From: Christiangramia crocea
GTDB lineage: Bacteria; Bacteroidota; Bacteroidia; Flavobacteriales; Flavobacteriaceae
Reading direction: 5' to 3'
DNA: 64,000 nucleotides
NCBI RefSeq assembly: GCF_022410465.1
Contig: NZ_JAJSON010000020.1
Coordinates: 124,001 to 188,000 of the forward strand
The notes beneath the pieces were generated by a model. The model saw only the letters and a list, made by a program, of their open reading frames with translations. It ran no database searches and had not been told where the DNA came from. The translations under genes and the position numbers were made by a program. Shown here in pieces: positions 12,833 to 34,833 of the stretch. Position 1 is the first letter of the stretch, and every line of letters starts with the position of its first letter.

Positions 12833-12834
12833 AA

Positions 12835-13047: not shown

Positions 13048-13090
13048 TAAAAGTATTCTGAGAGTAGTGGCTAAAAAATGACAACGGTCA
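13048..13090 (-). promoter_or_regulatory. Crp/Fnr-type promoter of ccoS-ccoNOQP
   Basis: On the minus strand the palindrome TGACCGTTGTCA (13090-13079) is followed, 35 nt from its first base, by TACTTTTA (13055-13048), which matches TAnnTTTG except for the last base. The predicted transcript starts near 13043, about 14 nt before the ccoS ATG. The same spacing occurs at five other promoters in this window. Confidence 0.72.
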
Positions 13091-13103
13091 GCTTTGTTTT
13101 CAT

Positions 13104-15515
13104 TTAATGCTTTAATCTTTTCCCAAGGATTTGAGTGGCCAGTGTGGTAAATCCAACTATGCTGATGGAACTCAAAGGCATAAGAATGGCGGCTACCACA
13201 GGCATAAGATTTCCTGAAACAGCAAAACCCAGTCCGATAAGATTATAACAAAGCGATAGAATGAAACTCCATTTTATAACTGAAATAGCTTTTGAGGACA
13301 GCTCAAAAAAGTCATGAAATTTACCAAAATTTCGCGCGTCCAGTATTCCGTCACAGGCCGGAGAAAAGACATTGATATCCTCTGAAATGACTATCCCTAC
13401 ATCGCTCTGGGCCAGAGCCCCGGCATCATTAAGACCGTCTCCTACCATCATTACTCTTTTGTTCTGCTTCTGCAGGTCTTTGATAAACTGAAGTTTATCT
13501 CCAGGTTTCTGGTTGAAGAACATTCTGATCCCGCCTGGAAGAAGCTGTTCCAGTCTTTCCTGTTCGCCATCGTTATCCCCTGAAAGTATGATAAGTTCTT
13601 TATTTTTCCCCAGGCTGGTGAAAAGCGACGAAAGTCCTTCTCGGTATGAGTTATGAAAGGTAAAACAGCCTTTATACTGATCGTTCGAGCTGATATGAAC
13701 CGAAGTTTTTTCCAGTTCTTCTCTTTTTTGTACTGATGTACCGTTAATGAATTTCTCCTTTACGAAAGCAGCAGAGCCTATCTTTAAAGACAGATCTTTA
13801 GAAGAGGTTTCGAGCCCCTGCCCCACATGTTCGTGGAAGACTTCTGGGGTAGAGATGCTATTCTTCTGAAGTACCTTATACAGAGCACGGCTCAGGGGAT
13901 GATTGGACGCCCTTAAGCTACCGGTTAAAAGTTCCTGTTCCTCTATACTAAGCTCTATGCCTTCATATTTAATGCTATCACGCTGATTGGTGGTAATAGT
14001 CCCGGTCTTATCAAAAACCACAGTATCAATTTTAGCGGCCTGCTCAATAACGGTAGTATCTTTCAAATAAAGATGGTTCCTTCCGAAGATGCGTAAAAGA
14101 TTCCCCAGAGTGAAGGGTGCTGCCAGCGCAATGGCACATGGACAGGCTATAATGAGTACCGCCGTAAAAACGTTCCATGCCTTGCCCGGATCATACATCA
14201 TCCAGAAGATGGCCGAAATAAATGCTATACTCAAGACAGCATACGTAAACCTTTTACTTATCTGATTTGTCAAGGTTTGAAAAGCACTGCTCTTATCTTT
14301 ACTAAAAACCTCATCACTCCATAATTCGGTAAGATAACTTTGCTTAACTGGTTTCAGCGCTTCCACCTCAATAATGCTTCCCTGCTGCCTTCCTCCAGCA
14401 TACAATCTGTCGCCACTGTACTTTTTCACTGGCTCAGCTTCTCCGGTCACAAAACTGTAATCAATTTTCGCATCACCTTTAATGAGAATGGCATCCATAG
14501 GAATAAGCTCCTCATTCCTGATAATTACCCTATCACCTTTCTTAATCTTATAAACCTGGACCTGTTCTTCTTTTTGCTGACCCTCTTCGGAAAAAATTCG
14601 AGTAACCGCAATGGGAAAATATGATTTATAATCCCTTTCAAAAGAAAGGAAAGAATAGGTCTTTTGCTGAAAGAATTTCCCCAATAAAAGGAAAAATACA
14701 AGTCCGCTAAGGCTGTCAAAGAAACCGGTTCCTGTGTCCATAATGATCTCGGCTGTACTTCTTAAAAATAAGACAGCGATCCCCAATGCAATGGGCACAT
14801 CTATATTCAGCAATCCTGATCGAAGCCCTTTATAGGCAGAAACGAAATAATCCTTTCCGGAATAGAACACCACCGGTAGTGCAAAGCTGAACGTGAGCCA
14901 GCGAAAAAGATGTTTGAACTGCTCCAGCCAGAATTCTTTGATTTCGAAATATTCAGGAAATGAGAGAAACATAATATTGCCAAAGGCAAAGCCAGCGACA
15001 CCTAATTTGTATATGAGGCTGCGGTCTATCCCCTTCTTCTCCTCTTCAAAATTCTCCAGGGATATATTGGGTTCATAACCTATTCTACCCAATAAAATAA
15101 CAAGTTCTTTCAGGGATAATTCTTCTGCAGAAAAACTGATCCTCAGTTTTTTCTTTGGAAAATCTACCTGGGAACTTTTAACCGCTTTGTGAAGTTTGTT
15201 AAGATTCTCAAGGATCCAGATACAAGAACTACAATGTATAGAAGGAATTCTAAAGGAAACTATCTGGCTGTCACCATGATCAAATTCCAGGAGTTTTTCT
15301 ATTATTTCTTCATTCTCAAGAAAATCGTATTTCTCTTCGCTGAGTTTGGGAGAATTACCCGGAGCATTCTCCAGATCGTAATAGTAAGAGAGGTCATTTG
15401 AATTCAAAATCTCAAATACCGTTTTGCATCCTGTACAGCAAAATGACTTTTCCGAATAGTTTATCGGCCCGTCCACACACTCTTCTCCACAATGAAAACA
15501 ATTTACCCTATCCAT
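13104..15515 (-). CDS. ccoI: CcoI copper-transporting P-type ATPase
   Basis: A P1B-type ATPase that delivers copper for cbb3 oxidase. The order is: a Cys-rich N-terminal cluster (CFHCGEEC and FCCTGC), an HMA-like domain with HCSSCIW, membrane helices, the actuator motif TGEAEP, the metal motif CPC in helix 6, the phosphorylation site DKTGT, the HP pair (SNHPLS), and GDGLND. I chose the ATG at 15515; a GTG at 15527 overlaps the stop of the preceding usp gene (GTGA) and would add four residues. It ends 75 bp before ccoS on the same strand, but an operator-promoter in that gap makes the ccoS unit separate. Confidence 0.94.
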   Translation of the reverse strand: MDRVNCFHCGEECVDGPINYSEKSFCCTGCKTVFEILNSNDLSYYYDLENAPGNSPKLSEEKYDFLENEEIIEKLLEFDHGDSQIVSFRIPSIHCSSCIWILENLNKLHKAVKSSQVDFPKKKLRISFSAEELSLKELVILLGRIGYEPNISLENFEEEKKGIDRSLIYKLGVAGFAFGNIMFLSFPEYFEIKEFWLEQFKHLFRWLTFSFALPVVFYSGKDYFVSAYKGLRSGLLNIDVPIALGIAVLFLRSTAEIIMDTGTGFFDSLSGLVFFLLLGKFFQQKTYSFLSFERDYKSYFPIAVTRIFSEEGQQKEEQVQVYKIKKGDRVIIRNEELIPMDAILIKGDAKIDYSFVTGEAEPVKKYSGDRLYAGGRQQGSIIEVEALKPVKQSYLTELWSDEVFSKDKSSAFQTLTNQISKRFTYAVLSIAFISAIFWMMYDPGKAWNVFTAVLIIACPCAIALAAPFTLGNLLRIFGRNHLYLKDTTVIEQAAKIDTVVFDKTGTITTNQRDSIKYEGIELSIEEQELLTGSLRASNHPLSRALYKVLQKNSISTPEVFHEHVGQGLETSSKDLSLKIGSAAFVKEKFINGTSVQKREELEKTSVHISSNDQYKGCFTFHNSYREGLSSLFTSLGKNKELIILSGDNDGEQERLEQLLPGGIRMFFNQKPGDKLQFIKDLQKQNKRVMMVGDGLNDAGALAQSDVGIVISEDINVFSPACDGILDARNFGKFHDFFELSSKAISVIKWSFILSLCYNLIGLGFAVSGNLMPVVAAILMPLSSISIVGFTTLATQILGKRLKH

Positions 15516-15523
15516 CACAAAGA

Positions 15524-16339
15524 TCACTTACATTCGTGAATCACCAGTATAGGAAGGGAATTGCTCAGGGTTGAAAGTAAACCATAGCGGGCGTGGAGAA
15601 AGTGGTCACAAACACTCAGATTCTTACCTATAATAATTATCATATCAAACCTGCCCTGTATCTCCTTCAGCAGATCTTCGCTAAAGATCTGAGATTCACC
15701 CATTTTTAAATACTTTGTCTTTACCTCACCATTTACGGTTGAAAGTTGGGGCCATTCAAATTCTTTGGTCATGCTTTCGTGGTGATCTTCGTCCAGTTCA
15801 ATGACCGTAAGTCGGCCCTGACTTATAAAACCTGCCTGTTCAAGATGCTGAAACACCTTTTCCCTTGAGATCACTGAATAATCCACCGGCAGAACGAACT
15901 TCTCTGCCTTAATATAGGTGCTACCCCCGGGTACCGCCATGATATTACACCTTATCTTGCGTATTACCTCATAGGCATGATCCCCAAGTATAGGGTGCTG
16001 ATGCACTTCCTGACTGGCCGCACCAATAAATATAAAATCGATCTTCTTTTCTGCCTGTGCCTTTCGCACAGCATTTATAAGGTTATCTGAAGATAATATA
16101 GTATTGAAGTTATGTTCAGGATTTTTAGTATGATTTTCCAGGTCTTGAACACTATTCTGAAGCTGTTCCAGGGTTGAAACCAGTTCATTTTCAAGGGACT
16201 TACTGGCCGATTTACTAAAATTAAAGTCATGTATATTGAGAAGAAAAAAGTTCGCAGCGATATTCTGCAGAAAATCTACAGCATAACGGCCGGCGTTATC
16301 AGAAACCTCCGAAAAATCGGTAAGGATTAATACATTCAT
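15524..16339 (-). CDS. Universal stress protein, tandem domain
   Basis: A 271-residue protein with two UspA-like halves; the N-terminus MNVLILTDFSE is the typical first strand and loop. The nucleotide-binding glycine pattern is weak in both halves, so ATP binding is uncertain. It is the promoter-proximal gene of the ccoI unit and overlaps or abuts ccoI, so it is co-expressed with copper insertion. Usp proteins are commonly induced under low oxygen; a specific role in oxidase maturation is only an inference. Confidence 0.85.
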   Translation of the reverse strand: MNVLILTDFSEVSDNAGRYAVDFLQNIAANFFLLNIHDFNFSKSASKSLENELVSTLEQLQNSVQDLENHTKNPEHNFNTILSSDNLINAVRKAQAEKKIDFIFIGAASQEVHQHPILGDHAYEVIRKIRCNIMAVPGGSTYIKAEKFVLPVDYSVISREKVFQHLEQAGFISQGRLTVIELDEDHHESMTKEFEWPQLSTVNGEVKTKYLKMGESQIFSEDLLKEIQGRFDMIIIIGKNLSVCDHFLHARYGLLSTLSNSLPILVIHECK

Positions 16340-16359: not shown

Positions 16360-16402
16360 CGAAATTAAGTGAAGCCTGCAACCGGAAAAATGATAAAAGT
16401 CA
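16360..16402 (-). promoter_or_regulatory. Crp/Fnr-type promoter of usp-ccoI
   Basis: On the minus strand TGACTTTTATCA (16402-16391) is followed at exactly 35 nt by TAATTTCG (16367-16360), one mismatch from TAnnTTTG. The predicted start is near 16355, about 16 nt before the ATG at 16339. It shares geometry with the ccoS, hpf, nos, thioredoxin-like and hemN promoters. Confidence 0.68.
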
Positions 16403-16433: not shown

Positions 16434-17480
16434 TTAACTTATATTTTTTAACGCCTCGGAATCAACAAGTTTAATGTTACGCCCTTCGATCTCTATAAGG
16501 CCTTCTTTTTTAAATTCAGAAAGGGTTCGTATAAGGCTTTCCGGAGCCATACCGGCCACTCCCGCAAGATCGGCCCTCGAAATCCGGATGCTTTTAAGCG
16601 GATGTTTTTTGATCCTTTCTGCAAAAAGAAGGATGGTATTTGCAGTTTTTTTACGTACCGAGCCGTAGGCCATATCCATGAGCTGTTTTTTCAATTCTGA
16701 AAGGTTATTATTCAGAACTTCAACCAATTGCAACGTGATTCTCGGATTCCTGCCAAGGATCTTATGGAATTCCTCTCTTGAGACCACGTGTAGATGTGTG
16801 TCTTCCATCGCAGTGGCATAATCTTCATACGCCGACTGTGAATCGTTGGCATGATTTCCGAAGAAATCGTCATCCTTATAAAGCTCTGTGATGAGTTCCT
16901 TTCCCTGGTTATCCATCCTGTGGGCTTTCACCACACCTCTTTTTACCAGATAAAAGAAATTAGACTTTTTACCTTTCTCATAAATAGTATCGCCTTTTTT
17001 AAATTCTTCCAGAGGATAATCACTGAAAAGCTCTCTAAGGTCCTCAAGGTTTTTCAGGCCACCTTCTTTAACTTCTGAAACTTCATTTTTCTTTTGATGG
17101 GATTTCAGAATTTCAACTTTTGCAAGGCGACTTTCTATTGCACTCAGAAGATCTTCTTCCTCAAAGGGCTTGGTAAGATAATCGTCAGCCCCAAGGTCCA
17201 TGCCTTTTCTTATATCCTTATGTTCGGTCTTAGCCGAAAGGAAAATAAAAGGAATATTTATGGTCTTGGGATCCTTACTTAATTCCTGCAACACTCCGTA
17301 GCCATCGGTCTCCGGCATCATGATGTCACAAACTATAATATCAGGAAGGTTTTGTTTTGCTTTTTCAATTCCATTTTTACCATTAGAAGCCGTAACCACA
17401 TCATAACCGGACAACTCCAGCAATTCCGCCGTATTTTCACGAACCGTTACATCGTCTTCAATTAGCAATACTTTCTTCAT
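16434..17480 (-). CDS. Receiver domain fused to Crp/Fnr-type regulator
   Basis: The N-terminal receiver (about 1-120) has the acidic pair Glu8/Asp9-Asp10, phospho-acceptor Asp52 (CDIMMPETDG) and Lys104. A linker leads to a cyclic-nucleotide-binding-type beta-roll (about 150-240), then a helical hinge and a Crp winged helix at the C-terminus, with recognition helix PESLIRTLSEF (Glu314, Arg318). Those two residues match the Glu and Arg that read the TGA core in Crp and Fnr. The only cysteine is Cys51, so an Fnr-type Fe-S oxygen sensor is excluded; input should come by phosphorylation. It follows the PAS kinase gene by 13 bp and lies directly beside the cbb3 locus. It is the best candidate to bind the TGA-N6-TCA sites of this window. 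Confidence 0.92.
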   Translation of the reverse strand: MKKVLLIEDDVTVRENTAELLELSGYDVVTASNGKNGIEKAKQNLPDIIVCDIMMPETDGYGVLQELSKDPKTINIPFIFLSAKTEHKDIRKGMDLGADDYLTKPFEEEDLLSAIESRLAKVEILKSHQKKNEVSEVKEGGLKNLEDLRELFSDYPLEEFKKGDTIYEKGKKSNFFYLVKRGVVKAHRMDNQGKELITELYKDDDFFGNHANDSQSAYEDYATAMEDTHLHVVSREEFHKILGRNPRITLQLVEVLNNNLSELKKQLMDMAYGSVRKKTANTILLFAERIKKHPLKSIRISRADLAGVAGMAPESLIRTLSEFKKEGLIEIEGRNIKLVDSEALKNIS

Positions 17481-17493: not shown

Positions 17494-18720
17494 TTAATTA
17501 TTTTTCACTGGAACCTCAACAGTAAACTTTGTTCCCACATTTTCCTTACTTGTAAAATGTATGCTTCCATTAAGGTTTTCAAGGTGAGCCTTGGCAATAT
17601 TGAGGCCAATTCCTGTACCCTGATCCAAAAGGGCATTTTCTGCCCTGAAATATCTTTCAAAAATATGCTTCTGATCCTTTTCCGGGATTCCCCTTCCCTG
17701 GTCTTCCACTTCAAAAATAATGTTCCCCTCTTTTATTTTCACATCAAATTTGATCACCGTATTTTCGGGTGAATACTTGATGGCATTCCCTAATAGATTA
17801 GAGAGTATCAGTTCCAGGATCTTTTCATCCTGATGCAGACTAATATCCTCCAGATCTCTGGGGTAAAGGATCTCCTGCCCGTCTTTAAGTGTGATATTGG
17901 CATTGTAGACCACTTCATTAATGAGTCTCTTTAGGCTGAAAGTAGTATACTTATACTGGCCTTTTCCGGAATCAAGTCTTTCTATTGAAAGAAAGTCATT
18001 AAGAATATTATTGAGATAATGAACCTTGTTCCTAATGGTGACAAGGTGTTTCTCCCTTTTCTCCTGCTGATCTTCCCTGGTATATTTTTCAGTAAGCGTT
18101 GCAGAAGTAAGTATCCCACTCAATGGGGTTTTAAATTCATGCGATACCAGCGAAAGAAATTTAGTCTTTAATTCGTTGAGTTCCTTTTCCTTTTGAAGGG
18201 CATCCTTGATCTTCCGCTCTGCCTCTTTCCTTCTCATTATTTCCTCTTCGAGGTTCTCAACGGTTTCTCTCAGCTCCTGGGTTCTTATTTTGATCTTATC
18301 TTCAAGTTGGGTGTTGAGTTCTTTGATCTGGCGCTGAGTCTCTTTCCTAACTGTAATATCTATCACCAAGGACATCACATAATCCTTGCCGTCCATTTTG
18401 AACGGGTTAAGTCCTGCTTCCACAGGAAAACGGGTGCCGTCTTTTTTCACTCCATAAAGATCCCTGCCGTGACCCATCTGGCGCTTTTCACTTTTATTCA
18501 GAAAATTATTGAAGTGATCGTGATGGCTGTGATGGTACTCTTTAGGAATAAGCACATCCAGGTGTTGATCTATGAGCTCACCTTCCCTGTATCCAAACAT
18601 CTCCTGGGCCGCTTTATTGGCAGCAACCACGATCTGATCTGAATTTACAACGATGATGCCTTCAGAAGCAGCCTGAAATAGGACATTGAAAATATCTCTG
18701 TGATCCAGAAATTCCTGCAA
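17494..18720 (-). CDS. PAS-domain sensor histidine kinase, FixL-like
   Basis: A soluble kinase with no membrane helix: one PAS domain (about 8-125), a coiled coil (about 125-190), H-box with His194 (SLVSHEFKTPL), N-box (LLGNAIKYSP), G1 box DQGRGI and the GTGIGL lid. The PAS segment IPKEYHHSHHDHF resembles the FixL heme region; His66 falls four residues after the conserved Tyr62, where the FixL heme ligand lies. Non-heme PAS domains of the same subfamily can also have a His there, so heme binding is a hypothesis. The start is TTG at 18720; no ATG occurs before residue 41. The partner is the receiver-Crp protein 13 bp downstream. Confidence 0.9.
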   Translation of the reverse strand: MQEFLDHRDIFNVLFQAASEGIIVVNSDQIVVAANKAAQEMFGYREGELIDQHLDVLIPKEYHHSHHDHFNNFLNKSEKRQMGHGRDLYGVKKDGTRFPVEAGLNPFKMDGKDYVMSLVIDITVRKETQRQIKELNTQLEDKIKIRTQELRETVENLEEEIMRRKEAERKIKDALQKEKELNELKTKFLSLVSHEFKTPLSGILTSATLTEKYTREDQQEKREKHLVTIRNKVHYLNNILNDFLSIERLDSGKGQYKYTTFSLKRLINEVVYNANITLKDGQEILYPRDLEDISLHQDEKILELILSNLLGNAIKYSPENTVIKFDVKIKEGNIIFEVEDQGRGIPEKDQKHIFERYFRAENALLDQGTGIGLNIAKAHLENLNGSIHFTSKENVGTKFTVEVPVKNN

Positions 18721-19174: not shown

Positions 19175-19217
19175 TGACAAGAGTCATATTTTTTGAAGAA
19201 AGTAAAGAGTAGCTTTG
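19175..19217 (+). promoter_or_regulatory. Crp/Fnr-type promoter of hpf-usp
   Basis: TGACAAGAGTCA (19175-19186) is followed at exactly 35 nt by TAGCTTTG (19210-19217), a perfect TAnnTTTG element. The predicted start is near 19222, which gives a leader of about 20 nt to the ATG at 19242. The TTG at 19215 lies inside the promoter and so cannot be the hpf start. Confidence 0.78.
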
Positions 19218-19241: not shown

Positions 19242-19541
19242 ATGAGCACTCAAATTCAATTCGTGAAAATACCTACCAGCGAAGCCCTAACAACATATAC
19301 CGAGAACAAACTGAACAAGCTAAGAGCCAGATTTGAAATTATAAAAGCAATAAATATCTATTTCAAATTAGAAAATGACCCAAAGGGAGAAGGAAAAATT
19401 TGCGAGATAGAATGCATCATTCCCGGAAGCAAGGTTTTTGCAGCTACCTCGCAACATTATTTTGAGCATTCCGTAAAAGTGGCCATTGCTGAAATAGAGA
19501 AACAGCTGGAAAAAAGAAAAGCTGTAATGATGGTTTATTAA
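19242..19541 (+). CDS. hpf: Ribosome hibernation promoting factor, short form
   Basis: A 99-residue protein of the HPF/RaiA family, which binds the 30S subunit and silences idle ribosomes. The fold is recognisable from the beta-alpha-beta pattern (IQFVKIPTSEALTTYTENKL, then strands with IEC and the helix ending EIEKQLEKRK). The short length lacks the C-terminal dimerisation domain of long HPF. The ATG at 19242 is preferred over the upstream TTG, which overlaps the -7 element. It is followed 17 bp later by a universal stress gene. Control by the same operator as the oxidase genes implies ribosome hibernation at low oxygen. Confidence 0.88.
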   Translation: MSTQIQFVKIPTSEALTTYTENKLNKLRARFEIIKAINIYFKLENDPKGEGKICEIECIIPGSKVFAATSQHYFEHSVKVAIAEIEKQLEKRKAVMMVY

Positions 19542-19558
19542 TCTTAAATCTTTTAGTT

Positions 19559-20392
19559 ATGAATACGATTCTAGTCCCCGTTGATTTTTCAGAGCATTCC
19601 GAATATGCCCTTGAAGTAGCCGCTACCATCGCCAAAAAGCAAAATGCAGATATAGTTGTGGTGCATATGATGGGCCTTCCTGAATCTTTTCTGACTAATG
19701 ATGAAAAACAGGAAGTCTTCAATGCTATTCATTTTATGAAACTCACAAAGCAGCGCTTTGAAAAATTCCTCGATAAGGACTATCTGGAAGGCATCGAGGT
19801 AGCCCAGGAGGTGAAAAACTTCAAGGTTTTCAGGGAAATAAATGAAGTAGCCAAGGAATATGAGGCCGATCTTATAGTGATGGGTTCTCATGGAGCCTCT
19901 GGTATTAAAGAGGTCTTTGCAGGATCCAATACTGAAAAAGTGGTGCGAACCTCAGAAACCCCGGTACTGGTAATTAAAAATCGTATCCCTGATTTTAAAA
20001 TCGAAAATGCGGTATTTGTGACCGACTTTGAGCCGGAAACCATAGATACATTTATAAGATCAAGGCAGTTTTTTAAATTTTTTGAAGTTGAACCAAAACT
20101 GCTTTTCGTAAATGTTCCCGAAAAATTCATGAGCACTAAAGAAATGCTGTCTATTGCCAATAAATTTTTGGAAGATGCAGGTATGGATGCTCCCGAAGTA
20201 AAGGATCAGATTACTTATTATGATGATTATACGCTTGAAAAAGGAATTTATAATTACTGTAATTCTATTCATGCTGATATCATCGCAATATCCACTCATG
20301 GAAGAAAAGGTATCGCCCATTTCTTTTATGGCAGTATAGGTGAGGATCTTGCCAATCACGCAAATACTCCCGTTCTAACTTTCAGGCTCTGA
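19559..20392 (+). CDS. Universal stress protein, tandem domain
   Basis: Two UspA domains in 277 residues. The first begins MNTILVPVDFSEHSEYAL and ends with the ATP-binding pattern GSHGASGIKEVFAGSNTEKV. The second ends with STHGRKGIAHFFYGSIGEDL, so both halves retain the G-x2-G-x9-G type signature, in contrast to the usp gene at 15524. It is 17 bp downstream of hpf and probably in one transcript with it. Its target is unknown. Confidence 0.93.
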   Translation: MNTILVPVDFSEHSEYALEVAATIAKKQNADIVVVHMMGLPESFLTNDEKQEVFNAIHFMKLTKQRFEKFLDKDYLEGIEVAQEVKNFKVFREINEVAKEYEADLIVMGSHGASGIKEVFAGSNTEKVVRTSETPVLVIKNRIPDFKIENAVFVTDFEPETIDTFIRSRQFFKFFEVEPKLLFVNVPEKFMSTKEMLSIANKFLEDAGMDAPEVKDQITYYDDYTLEKGIYNYCNSIHADIIAISTHGRKGIAHFFYGSIGEDLANHANTPVLTFRL

Positions 20393-20430
20393 CAGACCAT
20401 CTTCTTGAAGCTGGATAATCTTTGGGTATC

Positions 20431-21519
20431 ATGAAGATCGTATTTATAGCATTACTGATTATTCATCTTCTTATCCATTTTATTGGATTTTTTAAGGCTT
20501 TTGATTTAGTTAAACTACCGGAATCAAGCAATGCCATTTCCATAACCCAGGGGATATTCTGGCTGTTCACTGCATTACTTTTTATACCGTCTGTTATTTT
20601 TTATATTCAGAGTAATCCTGTATGGGCAGTAATAGCTATTCCGGCTGCCATTGTTTCACAGGTATTGATCGTCCTGAACTGGAATGATGCAAAATTCGGC
20701 ACTATAGTAAACCTGCTTATCATCCTGATCGCGATCATACATTTTGCAGGCTGGGAGTTTGAAAGAAGCTTTCAAAAAGAAGTGTCTGAAAGAATTGAAA
20801 ATTACCCCGCAGATACACTCACTCAACAGGATCTTGCCGGTCTACCTGAAGTTGTAAAGAATTATCTCCTATTTGTAGGTGTAGTGGGAAAGCCGAAAGT
20901 AAAAAACATTAAAATCAGTTTTGAAGGAGAAATGCGTGAAAAGGATAAGGAATGGTTCAAATTTAGATCTGAACAATTCAATTTTACAGACTCTCCTGCA
21001 CGTTTCTTTTTTATGAAAGCCAACTTTAAAGGACTACCAACCAGGGGTTTTCATTCCTTCAAAAGTTCCGGAGCCCGGATGCAGATAAAACCGCTTTCAT
21101 TATTCAGCGTGGTAGATCTTTCGCCCCCAGAATTGTTCCCTACAGAAATGGTTACTTATTTAAACGACATTTGTCTTTTCGCACCGGCAGCTCTTATAGA
21201 TAAGCGCATAGAATGGGAGGAGCTTGACGATCTTTCCGTTAAAGCGATTTTCAAACTGAACAACGAGAAAGTTTCAGCTGTCCTGGAATTCAATGAAGAA
21301 GGAGAACTTGCCAATTTTATTTCTGAAGACCGATATGCAATAGACATTATGAAAAAACTCAGGTTTTCCACTCCCGTGAAGAACTACAGACATATAAGGG
21401 GATATCGCCTTCCATCCTATGGTGAAGCTATATGGTGCTATCCCGAAGGAGAATTCACTTATGGAAGATTCAATTTGACAGATGTTCAATACAATATAAC
21501 AAAGTTGAATAAAACCTAA
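20431..21519 (+). CDS. Membrane protein of the DUF6544-like type
   Basis: The N-terminus has about four membrane helices (residues about 2-115), followed by a soluble domain with LAGLPEVVKNYLLFVGVVG and a beta-rich C-terminal part (GYRLPSYGEAIW near the end). This pattern matches proteins annotated DUF6544/DUF6920, whose role is unknown. The ATG at 20431 is preferred to the TTG at 20422. It follows the usp gene by 38 bp and may end the hpf transcript. It converges on deoD with a 4-bp gap. Confidence 0.75.
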   Translation: MKIVFIALLIIHLLIHFIGFFKAFDLVKLPESSNAISITQGIFWLFTALLFIPSVIFYIQSNPVWAVIAIPAAIVSQVLIVLNWNDAKFGTIVNLLIILIAIIHFAGWEFERSFQKEVSERIENYPADTLTQQDLAGLPEVVKNYLLFVGVVGKPKVKNIKISFEGEMREKDKEWFKFRSEQFNFTDSPARFFFMKANFKGLPTRGFHSFKSSGARMQIKPLSLFSVVDLSPPELFPTEMVTYLNDICLFAPAALIDKRIEWEELDDLSVKAIFKLNNEKVSAVLEFNEEGELANFISEDRYAIDIMKKLRFSTPVKNYRHIRGYRLPSYGEAIWCYPEGEFTYGRFNLTDVQYNITKLNKT

Positions 21520-22966: not shown

Positions 22967-23009
22967 CTAAAATATAGAGAGTCTCTCCTACTTAAAATGA
23001 CATATATCA
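22967..23009 (-). promoter_or_regulatory. Possible Crp/Fnr-type promoter facing deoC
   Basis: On the minus strand TGATATATGTCA (23009-22998) is followed at exactly 35 nt by TATTTTAG (22974-22967), one mismatch from TAnnTTTG. The predicted start near 22962 would give an 87-nt leader before deoC, longer than at the other six promoters. The site could instead be an accessory operator for the nos promoter 64 bp away. Confidence 0.4.
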
Positions 23010-24252: not shown

Positions 24253-24279
24253 TAAGCTTATAAATCAATCTCACAAATC

Positions 24280-26244: not shown

Positions 26245-26290
26245 TGTTTAGTTAGATGGAATACATGAACTAAGGGCATGTATTTCTGAG

Positions 26291-26324
26291 AAGGCGGGGG
26301 TTGGTTGATTGCTCCCGCCTTTCT
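26291..26324 (+). terminator. Hairpin after nosZ, partial terminator
   Basis: An 8-bp GC-rich stem (AAGGCGGG at 26291-26298 with CCCGCCTT at 26314-26321) is followed by TTCT. It lies within the nos operon, 14 bp before the next gene, so it probably reduces expression of the accessory genes relative to nosZ or stabilises the nosZ end of the mRNA. Confidence 0.65.
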
Positions 26325-26337
26325 ATTAAAAAATATT

Positions 26338-26952: not shown

Positions 26953-26962
26953 TTAGAAAAAG

Positions 26963-27397: not shown

Positions 27398-27400
27398 GAC

Positions 27401-28648
27401 TTGAAATTACCGATTTTCATATTGCTCTTTTTTGCTCTCTTCTTCAATCAGGGAAGAGCTAATACTATTGAAGTTTGTGAAAGCTGTAGTTATAAGAATA
27501 TAAAAACTGCAATTGCTGAAGCTGCGGCCTTCGATACCATTAAAATAAAAAAGGGAGTCTACAGAGAATTCAATTTACATATCACCAAACCACTTACCAT
27601 AATTGGAGAAGGATTTCCGGTTATTGATGGTGAAGACCAGGGTGAGATCCTTACCATAGAAGCTGATAATGTCACGATTGACGGTCTTAAGATCATAAAT
27701 GTTGGTACTAGTTATACTACAGACTTTGCCGCAGTGAGAGTCGTGAAAAGTGAAAACTTCCTGATAAAGAATCTTCAACTGGAGCGTCTCTTTTTTGGGA
27801 TCTATCTCGAAAAAGCCAGGAACGGAAAGGTGATAAACAACACCATTCTTGGGGATGCGGTTGAGGAGTTCAGTTCCGGGAATGGGATACAGCTCTGGTA
27901 CTGCAATAATGTAGAGGTTATTGGAAATACCATCAAAAAAGTTCGGGATGGTATCTACCTTGAATTTTCAGATGATATTCTTATAAAAGATAATATTAGT
28001 CAAAACAACCTGAGATACGGGCTGCACTTCATGTTCTCAAATAACGATATTTACGAAAACAACATTTTTGAAAACAATGGTGCTGGCGTAGCTGTGATGT
28101 TCTCCAAATTCATAACCATGAAAGGAAACATTTTCAGAAAGAACTGGGGAACAGCCTCCTTCGGATTATTACTGAAAGAGATCAACGATTCAGAGATAAG
28201 CAATAATAAGTTTGTAGAGAATACGGTAGGTATCAATATCGAAGGTTCAAACCGTATCAATTATGTAGATAATGATTTCAGGAATAATGGCTGGGCTGTT
28301 AAGGTTAGAGGGGCCTGTTATTCCAATATTTTCAAAAAGAATAATTTTTTCAACAATTCATTCGATATTTCATATAACAGCAAATTGAATGATAACAGTT
28401 TCGACGGAAATTACTGGAGCAGCTATACGGGCTACGATCTCAATAAGGACGGGATTGGCGATGTACCATACAGGCCCGTAAAGCTGTTTTCCTACATCGT
28501 GAACCGGACACCCGAAACCATTATTCTTCTAAGGAGTCTTTTTATCGATATTATTGATTTTTCAGAAAAGGTTTCCCCCGTATTTACCCCAGATAACCTG
28601 TTGGATCAAAATCCGTTACTAAAACCTGTATCCCATGATATCCATTGA
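27401..28648 (+). CDS. nosD: NosD periplasmic copper-processing protein
   Basis: A parallel beta-helix protein of the NosD family with many short right-handed repeats (for example GNTIKKVRDGIYLEFSDD). It works with NosF and NosY, which are thought to supply sulfur or copper to NosZ. A signal peptide (KLPIFILLFFALFFNQGRA) lies directly at the start, and the only start codon before it is TTG at 27401, four bases after the nosL stop. The end overlaps nosF by 14 nt, which implies translational coupling. Confidence 0.93.
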   Translation: MKLPIFILLFFALFFNQGRANTIEVCESCSYKNIKTAIAEAAAFDTIKIKKGVYREFNLHITKPLTIIGEGFPVIDGEDQGEILTIEADNVTIDGLKIINVGTSYTTDFAAVRVVKSENFLIKNLQLERLFFGIYLEKARNGKVINNTILGDAVEEFSSGNGIQLWYCNNVEVIGNTIKKVRDGIYLEFSDDILIKDNISQNNLRYGLHFMFSNNDIYENNIFENNGAGVAVMFSKFITMKGNIFRKNWGTASFGLLLKEINDSEISNNKFVENTVGINIEGSNRINYVDNDFRNNGWAVKVRGACYSNIFKKNNFFNNSFDISYNSKLNDNSFDGNYWSSYTGYDLNKDGIGDVPYRPVKLFSYIVNRTPETIILLRSLFIDIIDFSEKVSPVFTPDNLLDQNPLLKPVSHDIH

Positions 28649-29345
28649 AAACCTACATAAGAAATTCGGAAAGAATCAGGTCTTAAAAGGCATTGACCTG
28701 GAAATAGACCAGGGAGGGATATTTGCAGTTCTGGGACCCAATGGTTCCGGAAAGACCACCCTTATAAAAAGCATCCTGGGAATGGTAGTTCCAAATTCAG
28801 GAAGCATCAAACTCAATGGGAAATCGGTCAAAAATGACTGGAAATACCGCAATAATATTGATTATCTGCCCCAGATCGCGAATTTTCCCGGAAACCTCAC
28901 AGTCCGGGAACTTATTCGCATGATAAAAGATCTACGATCCTACAAAAAAGCGGAAGACGAAAGATTGATTCAATTATTCAAGCTGGAACCTTTTCTAAGC
29001 AAAAAACTGAGCAACCTTTCTGGAGGTACCAAACAAAAGGTAAACCTGGTGTTGACTTTCATGTTCGACAGTCCGCTTATCATCCTGGATGAACCTACTA
29101 CCGGTCTCGATCCCATTTCGCATTTAAGGCTTAAAGAACTTATTACCGAAGAAAAGAAAAAAGGAAAAACCATTATTATCACTTCTCATATCATGAGTTT
29201 TGTAGAAGAGATAGCAGACGAGATTGTATTCCTGCTGGAAGGCAAGATCTATTTTAAAGGTGGTATTCCTGCCCTGAAGACCAAGACCAAGCAGCCCGAT
29301 TTTGAGCATGCCATAGCATCAATTTTAACCACCAGTTATGTTTAA
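28635..29345 (+). CDS. nosF: NosF ABC transporter ATPase
   Basis: A single ABC domain with Walker A GPNGSGKTT, Q-loop, signature LSGGTKQKVNLVL and Walker B LIILDEPTTGLDP followed by the H-loop TSHIM. It energises the NosFY transporter needed for NosZ maturation. The length of 236 is typical of short NosF. It overlaps nosD by 14 nt and nosY by 8 nt. Confidence 0.94.
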   Translation: MISIENLHKKFGKNQVLKGIDLEIDQGGIFAVLGPNGSGKTTLIKSILGMVVPNSGSIKLNGKSVKNDWKYRNNIDYLPQIANFPGNLTVRELIRMIKDLRSYKKAEDERLIQLFKLEPFLSKKLSNLSGGTKQKVNLVLTFMFDSPLIILDEPTTGLDPISHLRLKELITEEKKKGKTIIITSHIMSFVEEIADEIVFLLEGKIYFKGGIPALKTKTKQPDFEHAIASILTTSYV

Positions 29346-30120
29346 GATATTAAAATACAGTTTCTACGATCTTATGCGAAGCCGCTGGAGCTACGTATAT
29401 TTCCTTTTCTATTTAATGCTGGGCTTCGTATTGCTTTTTCTTAATAATGATCTTTCCAAGGCGGTGATCACATTAATGAACGTCATCATTATCCTGGTAC
29501 CACTTATCGGAACCATTTTTGGAGTGATGTATTATTATAATTCAAAGGAATTTACCGAATTGCTTCTCGCCCAGCCGGTAAAAAGAAGTTCGATCTTTTT
29601 GGGACAGTATTTTGGAGTAGCACTGTCTCTGGCCATGAGCCTGGTGATAGGCCTTGGTTTGCCATTTATCTTTTACGGCATCTTTAACAGTGATGCCATA
29701 GCTAATTTCTCATTACTCCTAATAACAGGAGTTTTCCTGACACTTATCTTTACTGCTCTGGCCTTTGTGATCGCACTCACGAACGACAATAAGATAAAGG
29801 GCTTTGGATATGCGATTTTGCTCTGGCTCTTTCTGGCCGTAATCTATGACGGAATATTCCTGATGTCACTCGTGTTCTTTGAGGATTATCCACTGGATAA
29901 ATTCTCACTGATCGCCACCATGTTAAACCCTATAGATCTTTCCAGGGTACTTATTCTGCTGAAAATGGATATTTCAGCCCTACTGGGTTATACCGGAGCG
30001 GTTTTCCAAAAGTTCTTCGGAACCAATCAGGGTATCATATTATCATCAGCTATGCTCATTCTTTGGGTAAGCGTTCCTCTTTATTTCATCAGAAGAATTT
30101 CAAACAGAAAGGATTTCTGA
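29338..30120 (+). CDS. nosY: NosY ABC transporter permease
   Basis: A permease with six predicted membrane helices of the ABC-2 type and the family block NSKEFTELLLAQPVKRSSIFLG cytoplasmic loop (only part quoted: ELLLAQPVKR). It partners NosF. It is the last gene of the operon; the next gene has its own operator-promoter 19 bp after the stop. Confidence 0.92.
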   Translation: MFKILKYSFYDLMRSRWSYVYFLFYLMLGFVLLFLNNDLSKAVITLMNVIIILVPLIGTIFGVMYYYNSKEFTELLLAQPVKRSSIFLGQYFGVALSLAMSLVIGLGLPFIFYGIFNSDAIANFSLLLITGVFLTLIFTALAFVIALTNDNKIKGFGYAILLWLFLAVIYDGIFLMSLVFFEDYPLDKFSLIATMLNPIDLSRVLILLKMDISALLGYTGAVFQKFFGTNQGIILSSAMLILWVSVPLYFIRRISNRKDF

Positions 30121-30138: not shown

Positions 30139-30181
30139 TGAGAATGGTCATATATCCCTGAAGGTATAGTGCTTAATTTAG
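30139..30181 (+). promoter_or_regulatory. Crp/Fnr-type promoter of the thioredoxin-like gene
   Basis: TGAGAATGGTCA (30139-30150) is followed at exactly 35 nt by TAATTTAG (30174-30181), one mismatch from TAnnTTTG. The predicted start is near 30186, 16 nt before the ATG at 30202. The GTG at 30169 lies upstream of the predicted start and so is unlikely to be used. Confidence 0.7.
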
Positions 30182-30201: not shown

Positions 30202-30819
30202 ATGCGTGAACTACTGCTACAAAGCCTGAAAAATTCTTTCAGCTATCCGGACTATTTAAATCTTTTAGAAGACCTGGTAAAGTATAAAAGCACCACAGGA
30301 GAACCTAATGAAGACAGGGTAAATTTCACAGCCCTCAATTTCAAACGTATCCAACGCCTGAACAAGACCATTAAATTATCTCCTGAACAGGAAGACAGTT
30401 TCAAAAACCTAAGGCCCCAACAAACCTGGCTGGTGATCCTGGAATCCTGGTGTGCTGATGGCGCACAGACCATCCCGGTATTAAATAAGATTGCCGAAGC
30501 TTCCGAAAATATCAGTCTAAAGATCGTATTGAGGGACGAGCACCCGGAACTAATGGATAATTTTCTCACCAATGGTACCCGCTCGATTCCAAAACTTATC
30601 ATTCTGCATAAGAATCTTGAGGTAATGACCACCTGGGGCCCGCGATCAGTTCCAGCCACCGAAATGGTAACCGATTATAAAACTGAATTTGGGAAAATAG
30701 ATGCAGCCTTTAAGGCCAAGCTCCAGATATGGTACACTAAAGACCGTGGAATGAGTATTATCAATGAGCTGGCCGACACCGTAGATAAACTGAAATCTGA
30801 TAGATTCACAACGGTTTAA
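30202..30819 (+). CDS. Thioredoxin-fold protein with a single active-site Cys
   Basis: A cytoplasmic protein of about 205 residues with a helical N-terminus and a thioredoxin-like fold. The active-site segment reads ESWCADGAQTIP, so only one Cys is present where thioredoxins have CxxC, and the cis-Pro loop reads SIPKLI. It resembles the Thioredoxin_9 group; no reaction is known. Its stop codon overlaps that of the convergent membrane protein gene (TTAA shared, 30816-30819). The promoter carries the same operator as the nos and cco genes, so the protein probably acts under low oxygen. Confidence 0.85.
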   Translation: MRELLLQSLKNSFSYPDYLNLLEDLVKYKSTTGEPNEDRVNFTALNFKRIQRLNKTIKLSPEQEDSFKNLRPQQTWLVILESWCADGAQTIPVLNKIAEASENISLKIVLRDEHPELMDNFLTNGTRSIPKLIILHKNLEVMTTWGPRSVPATEMVTDYKTEFGKIDAAFKAKLQIWYTKDRGMSIINELADTVDKLKSDRFTTV

Positions 30820-32021
30820 TCATTAGACAAAAGCTGACTGCCCAGAATCATGGCAATGGCTATTAGAATGATTATACTGGCAAGACTTATAAGCAAATGT
30901 AGCGATGGATAAGTGCCGGCATTCGTTATGATTGCCAGGCCCCTGGAAAAGATCAGGAGTTCAGTAAGGAAGAAACCCGCCAGGTAAATATAAAGCTGAG
31001 TCATGGATAGTTTCAGAAGTCTGAAATGCTTGAGAAATGCCAGCAAAAGCACACTTACAATGCCAAGAAATACCCAGTGAATATAACTGATGATCATATC
31101 TAGATTGGTAAAGATCGTTTGGGTTATCACCGGAAATGAGCCTAGGATCTGCGCAATCAGTTTTATGAATAACATGAATAAAACCAGCCTTATAGAAAAG
31201 CTGAGCAGCGGCGGGAAACCTTTAAAAACAGATATGGCTTTGGAGTATATAGCTTTGAAAAGCACACCAAAAGCAATAAGCTGTAAAATCCCGCCAATTA
31301 AAGCAATTAGATAAATAGACCAGTGCGGGTGCATCCATAACAGCGAAAGGAAAAAGGTGAGGATCACCCCTGCATTCAGCAGGTAATAAAAACGCTTAAA
31401 GATCATTTTGGGGAGAACAAAAGACTTTTTTTCAAAAATATATAGAAAAATACCACAGAGAGCGACTATGAACCAGCCGTTATACTGAAAATGAAGGTAG
31501 AAATATATTGCATTTCTGTATAGGGCTGAACCACTTCCAGCTGTATTCATAATTATCCCGAGGGCCCAGGGACCAAGGCTGGAGATGACCATATACCATA
31601 GGGAAATCCTTACAAGCTTATAGCTATTGGTTTTCCTGAAATTTTGAGGACAATATTTAAAAAAGAAAAAGACGAACCAGTATGACACGATAAGGAATAG
31701 GCTGGAAAAAATTATTGAAAAAAGGGCATAACCGGTAAATGGAAAAGTAACCAGCATGCCTATTATGGTTCCCTGTGTACACCAGAAAATAAGCCGGTAT
31801 TTTTTTTGAACAGGCTGGGATCGCAGAAACGCAAAGTAAATAAGAGTGGTTAAAGCCGTATATACCCAGCCCAGTAAAGCGATATGAGAATGTGTATGAA
31901 CGATGAACTTATAGGTGACCGGAATATCAAAAACAACAAAGAACCGCAGCATGACTCCCAGAATGGCAATTATCATGAAATAAATGATCGCAAGCGTGGT
32001 ATGATGTTTCAACATTCGCAT
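30816..32021 (-). CDS. Multi-spanning membrane protein, heme-copper-oxidase-I or NnrS-like
   Basis: About twelve membrane helices in 401 residues, with no soluble domain. Helix 2 carries HTHSHIALLGW (His42, His44, His46), reminiscent of the heme-ligand helix of CcoN-type subunits and NorB. Further His lie in membrane segments: His177 (FYLHFQYNGW), His231/His233 (WMHPHW) and His315 (YIHW). The canonical CuB HH pair and the TM10 H-x-H are not evident, so it is not a standard oxidase or NO reductase. It is divergent from the Rrf2 regulator across a shared palindrome, which suggests a role in nitric oxide response or sensing. Confidence 0.7.
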   Translation of the reverse strand: MRMLKHHTTLAIIYFMIIAILGVMLRFFVVFDIPVTYKFIVHTHSHIALLGWVYTALTTLIYFAFLRSQPVQKKYRLIFWCTQGTIIGMLVTFPFTGYALFSIIFSSLFLIVSYWFVFFFFKYCPQNFRKTNSYKLVRISLWYMVISSLGPWALGIIMNTAGSGSALYRNAIYFYLHFQYNGWFIVALCGIFLYIFEKKSFVLPKMIFKRFYYLLNAGVILTFFLSLLWMHPHWSIYLIALIGGILQLIAFGVLFKAIYSKAISVFKGFPPLLSFSIRLVLFMLFIKLIAQILGSFPVITQTIFTNLDMIISYIHWVFLGIVSVLLLAFLKHFRLLKLSMTQLYIYLAGFFLTELLIFSRGLAIITNAGTYPSLHLLISLASIIILIAIAMILGSQLLSND

Positions 32022-32141: not shown

Positions 32142-32573
32142 ATGTTTTCAAAAGCATGCGAATACGGAATAAGAGCAACTCTGTTCATAACACAGGAATC
32201 GAAAAACAAGAGACGTGCGAGCCTCAAAACAATAGCCAGGGAAATTAATTCTCCTGAAGCTTTCACAGCCAAGATCCTTCAAAAGCTGGTTCAGCAGGAA
32301 ATTGTTGAATCAGCAAAAGGCCCACAGGGTGGTTTCTTTATTAGTCCGAAAAAACAGACAACTGTCATTGCCGAAATCGTAAAGGCCATAGATGGTGATT
32401 CTATCATGAACGGATGCGCATTAGGTCTTGAGAAATGTTCAGAAGAACATCCCTGTCCCTTGCACTACGATTTTACCGAAATCAGAAGCAATCTGAAACA
32501 TATGCTTGAAAACACAACTATCCTTGAACTTACATCAAGGCTGGATTCCGGGTTAGGTTTTCTAAAGCTCTAA
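32142..32573 (+). CDS. Rrf2-family Fe-S regulator, NsrR-like
   Basis: A winged helix at the N-terminus (ACEYGIRATLFIT, then a recognition helix around SPEAFTAKILQKLV) and the wing GPQGGFF are hallmarks of Rrf2 proteins. Three cysteines, Cys92, Cys99 and Cys105 (C-x6-C-x5-C), could hold a 2Fe-2S or 4Fe-4S cluster, as in NsrR or IscR. The neighbours (RIC repair protein, heme-copper-like membrane protein) point to nitric oxide sensing rather than Fe-S homeostasis. The length of 143 is normal. Confidence 0.9.
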   Translation: MFSKACEYGIRATLFITQESKNKRRASLKTIAREINSPEAFTAKILQKLVQQEIVESAKGPQGGFFISPKKQTTVIAEIVKAIDGDSIMNGCALGLEKCSEEHPCPLHYDFTEIRSNLKHMLENTTILELTSRLDSGLGFLKL

Positions 32574-32662: not shown

Positions 32663-33385
32663 CTAAGTCCTTAATTTTTTCTCCAATTGCAGGGCTTTTG
32701 GATGCAGAATATTATTTTCCAGGTGGATATGCTGATGTAAATCCTGTTCAAATTCATCCAGCTTATCAAACAGCGCCCTGTAAGTATTACAAGCGTGTGC
32801 TGGAGGGGTATAACCATCGGTAAGGCGGGAAATTTCCTTAAAGATATCACCTGCATCTTCATGTTCTACCTCCATCATTTTAATAGGGTTCTCTACAGTA
32901 TTGAATTGCGGAATATTTATTCCGGTCCTTTCTTTTGCTGCCTTTACCATTTTCTTGATAAAAGGGAAAAGGATCAATTCTTCTTTTTTGAGATGTGAGG
33001 CCAGTTCACCGGCTACTTTCTGAAAAAGCTGATGCACTTCAATAAGTTCCGGATTGTTACCACCGTGTACCCTGGCCACTTTATTGGTGTATTGAAGCAG
33101 CAGTGGAATATTCGCCTCGACATAGGTATGATGTTTTTCCACTATATGATCTATTAGTTCATCTAATGGAAGTTTATTGTAGTCGGTTTCCTTATCATTA
33201 AGGCTTCCTATGCTTTTAAGGTCTTCGACTACAAGGCTGTAATCAACGCCATTTTTTTCGCAGGCTTTTTGTATACTTATCCCTCCCCCGCAGCAAAAAT
33301 CTATTCCATATTTCTTAAAGACATGAGAGGCTTTTATATTTTCTGTCACACAATCGGCAACGGTTCTTTCTGGTGTAAATTCCAT
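32663..33385 (-). CDS. ric: RIC (ScdA/YtfE) di-iron Fe-S repair protein
   Basis: The N-terminal ScdA domain has the YGIDFCCGGG motif, followed by a hemerythrin-like di-iron bundle with conserved His and Glu (HHTYVEANIP, HLKKEELILFPF, EHEDAGDIF, HIHLENNILHP). RIC proteins repair Fe-S clusters damaged by nitric oxide or peroxide and are induced by nitrosative stress. The length of 240 is normal. It follows hemN by 21 bp and may share its promoter, which would place RIC under the Crp-type operator as well. Confidence 0.94.
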   Translation of the reverse strand: MEFTPERTVADCVTENIKASHVFKKYGIDFCCGGGISIQKACEKNGVDYSLVVEDLKSIGSLNDKETDYNKLPLDELIDHIVEKHHTYVEANIPLLLQYTNKVARVHGGNNPELIEVHQLFQKVAGELASHLKKEELILFPFIKKMVKAAKERTGINIPQFNTVENPIKMMEVEHEDAGDIFKEISRLTDGYTPPAHACNTYRALFDKLDEFEQDLHQHIHLENNILHPKALQLEKKLRT

Positions 33386-33406
33386 AATATTAAATTTAAG
33401 TGTTTA

Positions 33407-34771
33407 TTATACTGTCATTGAAAATAATTGTGTCTGAGGCTTATTTCTTTGCAGCCTCATATCGAAGGCCATACATATATTGCGTACGAATGGCCTCCCT
33501 TTTTCGGTAATCTCCAGATAATTGCTGTCAATTTCGATAAGACCATCCTTTTGCATTTCCTTTAAACGGATCAAAACATCTGGCAGTTCCTTAAAAAACT
33601 CCTTACGCGTATACCAGGAGGTCTTTAATTTGCACATGAGATTGAGAATATGCTTTCTTATAACCAGATCCTCATCGGTTAAAATATGACCTCTGTAAAC
33701 GGGCAGAATATCCTTACTGACTAACTCCTGATATTCTTCAACGCTTTTTACATTTTGAGCAAAGCCATACCAGCTATCACTGATAGCAGAAACTCCGAGA
33801 CCTATCATAGCCTGGGTCTTAGAATTGGTATATCCCATAAAATTTCGATGGATGGTTTTCTCTTCCACGGCTTTATAAAGGCTATCTGTTCTAAGGGCAA
33901 AGTGATCCATCCCTATCTCCACGTAACCTGCATCCAGTAACATTTGCTTGCCTGTTTCGTATTGCTCTCTTTTTTCCTTTGCCGTCGGGAGATCTTTTTC
34001 ATTAAAACCCCGCTGTCCATTTCCCTTTATCCATGGAACATGGGCATAACTATAAAAAGCGATGCGGTCTGGCATCAGCTCTTTGGTTCTCTCTATGGTG
34101 TGAATAATGTGTTCCTTTGTCTGAAATGGAAGTCCGAAAATAATATCATGCCCTACCGAAGAAAATCCTGTTTCTCTGGCCTGTAGGGTAGCTCTTTTCA
34201 CATTTTCAAAAGGCTGGATCCTGTGAATTGCCTTTTGAACAGTAGGATTATAATCCTGCACCCCATAGCTCACCCGGTTGAATCCGAGTGCTGCCAGAAT
34301 TTCCAAATGTTCCTTTGTAGTATTGTTTGGATGACCTTCAAAACTCATTTCCGCTTCAGAAGATCTCTTCGCCTTTTTAAAAATTCCGTCGATAAGAAGT
34401 TTAAGATTTTCAGCAGAAAAGAAGGTAGGAGTACCTCCTCCAAGGTGTATTTCCTTTACTACCGGGTCTTCTTCCAGAAGCTCAGAATACATTTCCCATT
34501 CCCTTAAAACTGATTTTATATAGGGATCTTCCACTCCGTGATTCTTCGTGATCCTCTTATTACAACCACAAAAAGTACAAAGGCTTTCGCAAAAAGGAAG
34601 ATGTATATAAAGGCTTATGCCTTCTGAAGAATTACTTTCATTAAAGCTCCTAATAATAGAAGACTTCCACTTCTCTGAATTAAAATCCTGTTCCTCCCAA
34701 TAAGGAACGGTAGGATAACTCGTATATCGTGGTCCCGCAACGTTATATTTCTGTATTAAATCTGAAGCCAC
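33407..34771 (-). CDS. hemN: Oxygen-independent coproporphyrinogen III oxidase
   Basis: A radical SAM enzyme that decarboxylates coproporphyrinogen III in heme synthesis without oxygen. The cluster motif is CESLCTFCGC (C-x3-C-x2-C-x-C) near residues 59-68, preceded by YIHLPF; GGGTPTF follows at about residue 110. The N-terminal GPRYTSYPT is the HemN signature that distinguishes it from HemW. The start is GTG at 34771, supported by the promoter position, which places the transcript start about 15 nt upstream. ric follows in the same unit. Confidence 0.95.
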   Translation of the reverse strand: MASDLIQKYNVAGPRYTSYPTVPYWEEQDFNSEKWKSSIIRSFNESNSSEGISLYIHLPFCESLCTFCGCNKRITKNHGVEDPYIKSVLREWEMYSELLEEDPVVKEIHLGGGTPTFFSAENLKLLIDGIFKKAKRSSEAEMSFEGHPNNTTKEHLEILAALGFNRVSYGVQDYNPTVQKAIHRIQPFENVKRATLQARETGFSSVGHDIIFGLPFQTKEHIIHTIERTKELMPDRIAFYSYAHVPWIKGNGQRGFNEKDLPTAKEKREQYETGKQMLLDAGYVEIGMDHFALRTDSLYKAVEEKTIHRNFMGYTNSKTQAMIGLGVSAISDSWYGFAQNVKSVEEYQELVSKDILPVYRGHILTDEDLVIRKHILNLMCKLKTSWYTRKEFFKELPDVLIRLKEMQKDGLIEIDSNYLEITEKGRPFVRNICMAFDMRLQRNKPQTQLFSMTV

Positions 34772-34790
34772 CTTAGGTTTTATTTGGCTC

Positions 34791-34833
34791 CAAAAATACT
34801 GGCAATCAGGCTAAAGAAATATGATATGCATCA
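34791..34833 (-). promoter_or_regulatory. Crp/Fnr-type promoter of hemN-ric
   Basis: On the minus strand TGATGCATATCA (34833-34822), an Fnr-like TGAT-N4-ATCA palindrome, is followed at exactly 35 nt by TATTTTTG (34798-34791), a perfect TAnnTTTG. The predicted start is near 34786, 15 nt before the GTG at 34771. It overlaps the end region of the upstream hypothetical gene's spacer. Confidence 0.78.

Follow-up and report, generated by a model that had tools for sequence, protein, structure and literature searches.

A stretch of 64,000 nt from the Christiangramia crocea genome (Flavobacteriaceae, Bacteroidota; assembly GCF_022410465.1, contig NZ_JAJSON010000020.1, positions 124,001 to 188,000 of the forward strand; hereafter the window, numbered from its first letter) carries genes for cbb3 oxidase, nitrous oxide (N2O) reduction, anaerobic heme synthesis, ribosome hibernation and universal stress proteins (usp). 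Upstream of these genes recurs a composite promoter, consisting of a TGA-N6-TCA operator, a 23-nt spacer and a TAnnTTTG -7 element. The first-pass annotation had described six composites, three of them exact (hpf, nos and hemN) and three with one mismatch (ccoS, usp-ccoI and a thioredoxin-like gene), with start codons 49-58 bp from the operators. A pattern scan of the window found all six operators and all six -7 elements where they had been placed, and both the mismatch counts and the operator-to-start distances held. A seventh composite, absent from that annotation, lies with its operator 63 bp from the nos operator. The seven composites are:

13048-13090 (operator 13079-13090, -7 element 13048-13055), minus strand: ccoS composite promoter, one mismatch, in the -7 element; ATG at 13029, 49 bp on
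16360-16402, minus strand: usp-ccoI composite promoter, one mismatch; start codon 51 bp from the operator; immediately 3' of a gene for a receiver-CRP fusion protein
19175-19217, plus strand: hpf-usp composite promoter, exact; start codon 55 bp from the operator
22967-23009, minus strand: seventh composite promoter, facing a DeoC-like/PNP gene pair and divergent from nos, one mismatch; ATG 122 bp from the operator
23073-23115, plus strand: nos operon composite promoter, exact; start codon 58 bp from the operator
30139-30181, plus strand: composite promoter of the thioredoxin-like gene, one mismatch; ATG at 30202, 51 bp from the operator
34791-34833, minus strand: hemN-scdA composite promoter, exact; start codon 50 bp from the operator

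The composites of the DeoC-like gene and the nos operon (22967-23115) point apart, and two dimers could sit there 75 bp centre to centre.

It is the fixed distance between the two words that distinguishes these sites. Taken by itself the palindrome says little (44 in the window versus 24 expected), whereas the seven composites at up to one mismatch compare with 0.71 expected (standard deviation 0.83), and none of 100 shuffles reached seven. When the spacer was varied from 5 to 41 at the same tolerance, seven matches fell at spacer 23, while the other spacers averaged 0.64 with a maximum of 3. The same peak was found in the whole genome (3.90 Mb in 32 contigs): among 52 exact matches at spacers 8 to 38, 12 lay at spacer 23 and 40 were spread over the 30 others (Poisson P 2e-8); at up to one mismatch there were 74 composite matches versus 21 for the reversed pattern. 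All 12 exact sites were intergenic (outside open reading frames (ORFs) of >300 nt), and 11 were followed within 260 bp by the start of an ORF (>=60 amino acids) on the correct strand. The remaining one, at position 29689 of contig C4, precedes a ScdA/hemerythrin gene whose listed TTG start falls within the composite; translation would then begin at a later start codon. Genomic context was read for 46 of the 74 matches, namely the 12 exact sites and 34 with a mismatch in the -7 element; the other 28 had a damaged palindrome or were not fetched. Among the 34, 20 lay outside and 14 inside an ORF of >300 nt; thus the one-mismatch set is a mixture.

Two genes for candidate regulators, where the first-pass annotation had named none, sit between the usp-ccoI and hpf sites, the first of them directly upstream of the usp-ccoI composite:

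16434-17480, minus strand: candidate activator of 348 amino acids, with a receiver, a cyclic nucleotide-binding-type domain and a Crp-type helix-turn-helix (Pfam; E8, D9, D52, K104, E314 and R318 conserved in 81 of 81 sequences)
17494-18720, minus strand: soluble PAS-HisKA-HATPase kinase with a FixL-like PAS domain, candidate oxygen sensor and partner kinase (Pfam; PDB relatives)

The conservation of the composite around such fusion genes was assessed with a profile built from 13 receiver-CRP proteins, from which the best 80 of 586 loci were kept (1.44 Mb together). These loci are mainly from Flavobacteriaceae (including Salinimicrobium, Aquimarina, Arenibacter, Algibacter and Winogradskyella) and also from Mucilaginibacter, Hymenobacter, Ekhidna and Chitinophagaceae. 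Over spacers 5-41, 103 of 153 exact composites fell at spacer 23, with 50 across the other 36 spacers and 7 at the next highest; four scrambled word pairs at spacer 23 gave 0, 2, 0 and 1 matches. After collapse at 60% identity 78 of the 103 were left. The sites were distributed as 84 in 43 of the 51 loci L069-L119 and 19 in 11 of the 29 loci L120-L148, and 39 of the 80 loci had an exact composite within 400 bp 3' of the fusion gene. Nearly all (100 of 103) lay outside ORFs of >=150 amino acids, and an ORF started within 150 bp of 85. Composites were denser near the fusion gene (103 in 1.44 Mb) than across carrier genomes (about 3 per Mb), although cbb3 and usp genes also lie there.

Could operator and -7 element line up merely by chance, or through the base composition of AT-rich intergenic DNA? 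Both words do prefer intergenic DNA, as 28 of 40 composites at spacers 5-21 and 26-41 likewise lay outside ORFs of >=150 amino acids. On the other hand, such an effect does not account for a sharp peak at a single spacer in the window, the genome and the 80 loci, nor for the result with a stricter word (TGAYN4RTCAT), which gave 54 matches versus 0 for reversed-pattern controls in 61 genomes across the phylum (35 of the 54 in the seven genomes of the own order). We regard this explanation as extremely improbable. The composite motif is thus confirmed, far above chance.

Activators such as CRP and FNR occupy position -41.5 at class II promoters. In Flavobacterium psychrophilum TAnnTTTG is located at -12 to -5 (PMC9723704), which places the operator centre at -41.5 here. 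The class II geometry put forward in the first-pass annotation is therefore supported by the spacer scans of the window, genome and 80 loci together with the TAnnTTTG placement in PMC9723704. As a possible trace of an upstream -33 element, TTG was present at any one start from position 9 to 18 in at most 7 of the 103 sites, and at these starts together in 19; starts 9-11 are barred by the operator itself. Information is concentrated in TGAY, RTCAT and the -7 element; composite positions 13-18 (0.17 to 0.66 bits) are rich in A/T, and spacer positions 19-34 hold at most 0.27 bits, so that it is the distance that is kept and not the sequence. The operator is also asymmetric, being followed by T in 97 of the 103 sites and preceded by C in 50, A in 32 and T in only 11. 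The sub-consensus TGAnAAnnGTCA, which had been offered for most of the window operators, indeed fits five of the six, but only with every site read on the plus strand irrespective of promoter direction, and in the 103 sites little constraint is seen on the inner bases beyond TGAY-N4-RTCA.

The fusion protein has the features that would be expected of a reader of these operators. Its three domains (PF00072, 9.6e-30; PF00027, 5e-15; PF13545, 3.6e-13) lie in one ORF. In the fusion and its 80 relatives the receiver residues E8, D9, D52 and K104 as well as E314 and R318 of the reading helix are kept in 81/81, and Ile317 in 77/81. An E-xxx-R pattern in the reading helix is the rule for TGA half-sites, and at the place of Ile317 FNR has Ser; Ile317 would fit the scarcity of T at the outer operator base. 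Covariation between residue 317 and that base rests on three sites from two loci that go with Ser, which are too few. Reading of the sequence found no CxxC and no N-terminal cysteine cluster of the FNR type in the fusion. In NCBIfam no match at cut-off was found (best 25 of 111 matches), and in PDB no match spanned the receiver and CRP parts in one stretch (best 60 of 417). A structure model (mean predicted local distance difference test score 79.7, predicted template modelling score 0.40) had both CRP-family and receiver matches among the 50 matches listed and gives no mechanism. In a tree of the CRP part (45 chosen rows) the fusion has one or two origins, one origin being found in 22% of 200 bootstrap trees. 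Most simply, an FNR-type activator of Bacteroidota would have come under two-component control through fusion to a receiver.

In 76 of the 80 loci a kinase gene is found no more than 400 bp from the fusion gene. The window kinase is without a long hydrophobic stretch, and a PDB search with its PAS domain returned FixL first (1d06, 4.8e-16) and DosP next, with 13 of 16 matches being FixL, DosP or DosP-type heme PAS domains (YddU is taken here to be DosP). In FixL and DosP a proximal His ligates heme, and it aligns with H66 of the kinase, in a column that is H in 69 of 77 kinases. Against the NCBIfam equivalog of FixL, which is rhizobial, the kinase scored 95.9 bits, below the cut-off of 850. 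The PAS domain is likely to carry heme, as judged from these alignments, with parts of the pattern shared by other PAS domains.

The genes that follow the window composites are:

6678-13029, minus strand: same-strand run of cbb3 oxidase genes, ccoS, ccoNO, ccoP, ccoG, ccoH and a dsbD2-like gene (Pfam for NO, P, G and DsbD_2; ccoS and ccoH by position only)
13104-16339, minus strand: usp-ccoI operon (Pfam)
19242-21519, plus strand: hpf-usp-DUF6544 operon (Pfam)
23143-30120, plus strand: nos operon, encoding cytochrome c, a fasciclin-domain protein, NosZ, NosL, NosD and an ABC transporter (Pfam)
32663-34771, minus strand: hemN-scdA operon (Pfam; HemN above the NCBIfam cut-off; ScdA/hemerythrin gene 21 bp after hemN)

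Outside the window, exact sites of this genome stand before genes for a universal stress protein, a 2-oxoacid:ferredoxin oxidoreductase, NadA, a U32 peptidase-family protein, a LolA-like protein, a SHOCT-domain protein and small proteins without a family, while one-mismatch sites precede those for a ferredoxin, complex I chain 3 and a hemerythrin. Near the fusion genes of relatives, the gene after the composite, named by its best window relative (BLAST matches covering <60% of the query discarded), was usp in 51 cases, ccoS in 7, hpf in 2, ccoI in 1 and scdA in 1, with 41 left without assignment. Given the coherent genes, the fixed spacing in the 80 loci and the intergenic position of the sites, the earlier reading of a low-oxygen regulon (cbb3 oxidase, N2O reduction, anaerobic heme synthesis, ribosome hibernation and usp) is supported, and the target set appears to have the profile of such a regulon. 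We therefore regard the sites as predicted class II promoters of a low-oxygen regulon, and consider it rather probable that the adjacent receiver-CRP fusion is their activator at the cbb3, usp and hpf operons.

Several side observations concern the surroundings of these genes. Runs of usp-like genes follow the fusion gene in loci L069-L118 (e.g., L084, L087 and L116), some with a composite promoter of their own. Labels given only by eye add PpsA, acetyl-CoA synthetase, MlaE and an indolepyruvate-type oxidoreductase as putative targets. Between the thioredoxin-like gene and an Rrf2-family gene lies a 401-amino-acid hydrophobic protein (30816-32021, minus strand) with no Pfam or NCBIfam match at E 0.001; the Rrf2-family regulator itself (32142-32573, plus strand), between the nos region and hemN-scdA, is possibly of the nitric oxide (NO)-responsive NsrR type.

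Beyond the fusion loci, at least one exact composite was found in 86 of 119 genomes of the order, and in the own family (15 genomes, 58.6 Mb) there were 155 versus 11 reversed controls. The promoter rule is chiefly one of this order (Flavobacteriales by named relatives) and sparser elsewhere. A full-length fusion was present in 12 of the 119 genomes and in 9 of the 15 of the own family; G074, outside the family comparison, has a 61% identical receiver piece ending at a contig end and was scored as lacking the fusion. The idea that the motif is exclusive to the fusion was rejected, as fusion-free genomes of the same family carry the composite.

The reading of the fusion and its kinase as the switch of these promoters has to be weighed against several observations: i) in 41 of the 80 loci the 400 bp 3' of the fusion gene contained no exact composite, and 26 loci (18 of them among L120-L148) had none at all; ii) composites in the own family numbered 3.15 per Mb in the nine genomes with the fusion versus 1.90 in the six without (one-sided p = 0.07); iii) in spacer counts covering the fusion-free genomes G114 and G048, with G064 left out, G114 peaked at spacer 23 (10 matches; at most 5 elsewhere), and G048, which has no full-length fusion, had 8 at spacer 23, 8 at 24 and 7 at 21; iv) a composite follows a plain FNR-like gene of G026 on its strand; v) four further CRP-type proteins of the own genome (the paralogue on contig C10, L031, L032 and L037) have an E-xxx-R helix; vi) the aligned His is missing in 8 of 77 kinases, in one (L138) probably through misalignment, and the column of the conserved Arg, which belongs to the oxygen pocket of FixL, is R in only 44 of 77, the window kinase included. 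The composite grammar therefore looks wider than the fusion.

One alternative is that these promoters are mainly under a CxxC-bearing FNR-like regulator (L032, contig C18) sensing oxygen through an iron-sulphur cluster, with the fusion controlling only its neighbours or nothing here. It would explain the composites of relatives without the fusion, and the N terminus of L032 has C-x2-C-x4-C. Moreover, among 12 plain CRP/FNR proteins of relatives whose sequences were read (of the 12, only L060 of G064 comes from a member of the own family without the fusion), 10 combine an N-terminal CxxC with a fusion-like E(S/T)xIR helix, and composites stand 3' of plain CRP genes on the same strand (G026:C39:5661-5703 and G014:C1:1065445-1065487), arranged as for the fusion. 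However, L032 is a long-branch member of the CRP tree whose cluster is only predicted, and the crowding of composites around the fusion points the other way, though cbb3 and usp genes share that neighbourhood; we consider this account unlikely as a whole. CxxC-bearing FNR-like proteins nonetheless probably govern the composites of fusion-free genomes of the same family, and the one in the own genome probably shares part of the regulon. Only a little less doubtful is the possibility that several CRP/FNR paralogues share the operator word, each adding its own signal (oxygen, NO or redox), with no single regulon. The own genome has eight Crp helix-turn-helix matches (seven above the cut-off), an E-xxx-R helix occurs in five of its CRP-type proteins, and sites are grouped around three of these, namely the window fusion, the C10 paralogue and L037, beside the ScdA gene on C4. 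The C10 sites also differ, four of five ending in TAnnTTTA, a consistent variant of the -7 element. Such sharing would limit the role of the fusion without removing it, and the neighbouring fusion remains our preferred activator of the cbb3, usp and hpf operons.

Two of these regions merit description. In L149 (G000:C10:15000-34900) a second receiver-CRP fusion, a 41% identical paralogue, sits amid five one-mismatch composites and adjoins genes resembling, by eye, PpsA, Usp and a short-chain dehydrogenase/reductase. In L168 (G000:C4:22000-34000) the plain CRP gene L037 has three exact composites nearby, along with the ScdA gene, an integrase and a match to PycTM (Pycsar effector family).

The geometry of the sites, the degree to which it is conserved and its link with the fusion are observed; they fit a mechanism whose binding, phosphotransfer, heme and oxygen signal we infer, and which would amount to FixL-FixJ-FixK with FixK and the receiver of FixJ joined in a single protein. 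The soluble kinase would bind heme through its FixL-like PAS domain and, when oxygen leaves, phosphorylate Asp52 of the receiver. The CRP part of the phosphorylated fusion would then dimerise or tighten on the operator and recruit RNA polymerase: the CRP/FNR-family dimer would sit on (C/A)TGAY-N4-RTCAT centred at -41.5, where it would cover the region of the -33 contact, with TAnnTTTG read by the primary sigma factor. More broadly, we tentatively propose, with somewhat less than even confidence, that the receiver-FNR fusion of Flavobacteriaceae and other Bacteroidota is the direct phosphorylation target of a FixL-type kinase, so that FixL-FixJ-FixK would be compressed to two proteins; that the CRP dimer would be switched by phosphorylation rather than by a small ligand or an iron-sulphur cluster; and that iron-sulphur FNR and the fusion would read the same promoters, all following a single -41.5 rule together with the TAnnTTTG sigma factor.

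Bacteroidota have an unusual primary sigma factor and promoter, and the activated promoters of the phylum are little described in the literature surveyed. In titles and the starts of abstracts, with most subscription journals outside the coverage, no description of the promoter rule or of a receiver-CRP fusion in Bacteroidota was found. With an exact operator-to-core rule, low-oxygen and N2O-reduction regulons can be predicted from sequence in many genomes. The pairing of a receiver-CRP fusion with a neighbouring FixL-like kinase makes oxygen sensing in these nitrous-oxide-reducing bacteria directly testable.

At class II CRP- and FNR-dependent promoters of Escherichia coli the operator is centred at -41.5. 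The centre is the same here, but the core is the TAnnTTTG of the Bacteroidota sigma factor and not TATAAT. FNR-like regulators with N-terminal cysteines in the relatives share the E-xxx-R helix and have composites in their genomes, whereas the fusion has a receiver and no CxxC. A further parallel comes from Nitrosophilus labii, which we take to be a Campylobacterota-type organism. There Crp/Fnr control of clade II nosZ was suggested, with predicted TTGA-N6-TCAA-type sites upstream of nosZ, and the part of that account available (PMC11539149) contains neither a TAnnTTTG grammar nor a receiver fusion. HcpR2 of Bacteroides, of the same phylum and the CRP/FNR family, differs in its operator (GTAAC-N4-GTTAC) and its hcp-centred regulon (PMC1274295). 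The arrangement here resembles FixL-FixJ-FixK of Alphaproteobacteria, where a PAS kinase and a CRP/FNR-type activator of cco, hemN and nos genes are likewise found, FixL being the first PDB match of the PAS domain of the window kinase. According to PMC4999443, FixK has no iron-sulphur cluster and needs the FixLJ pair, the sites of FnrN and FixK are very similar, and FixK is proposed to have arisen from FnrN by loss of the cluster and joining of FixLJ; the operator given there for the FixK system is TTGANCNNGATCAANG, versus (C/A)TGAY-N4-RTCAT here. The two systems also differ in that FixJ controls the fixK gene, whereas in C. crocea receiver and CRP-type activator lie in one ORF.

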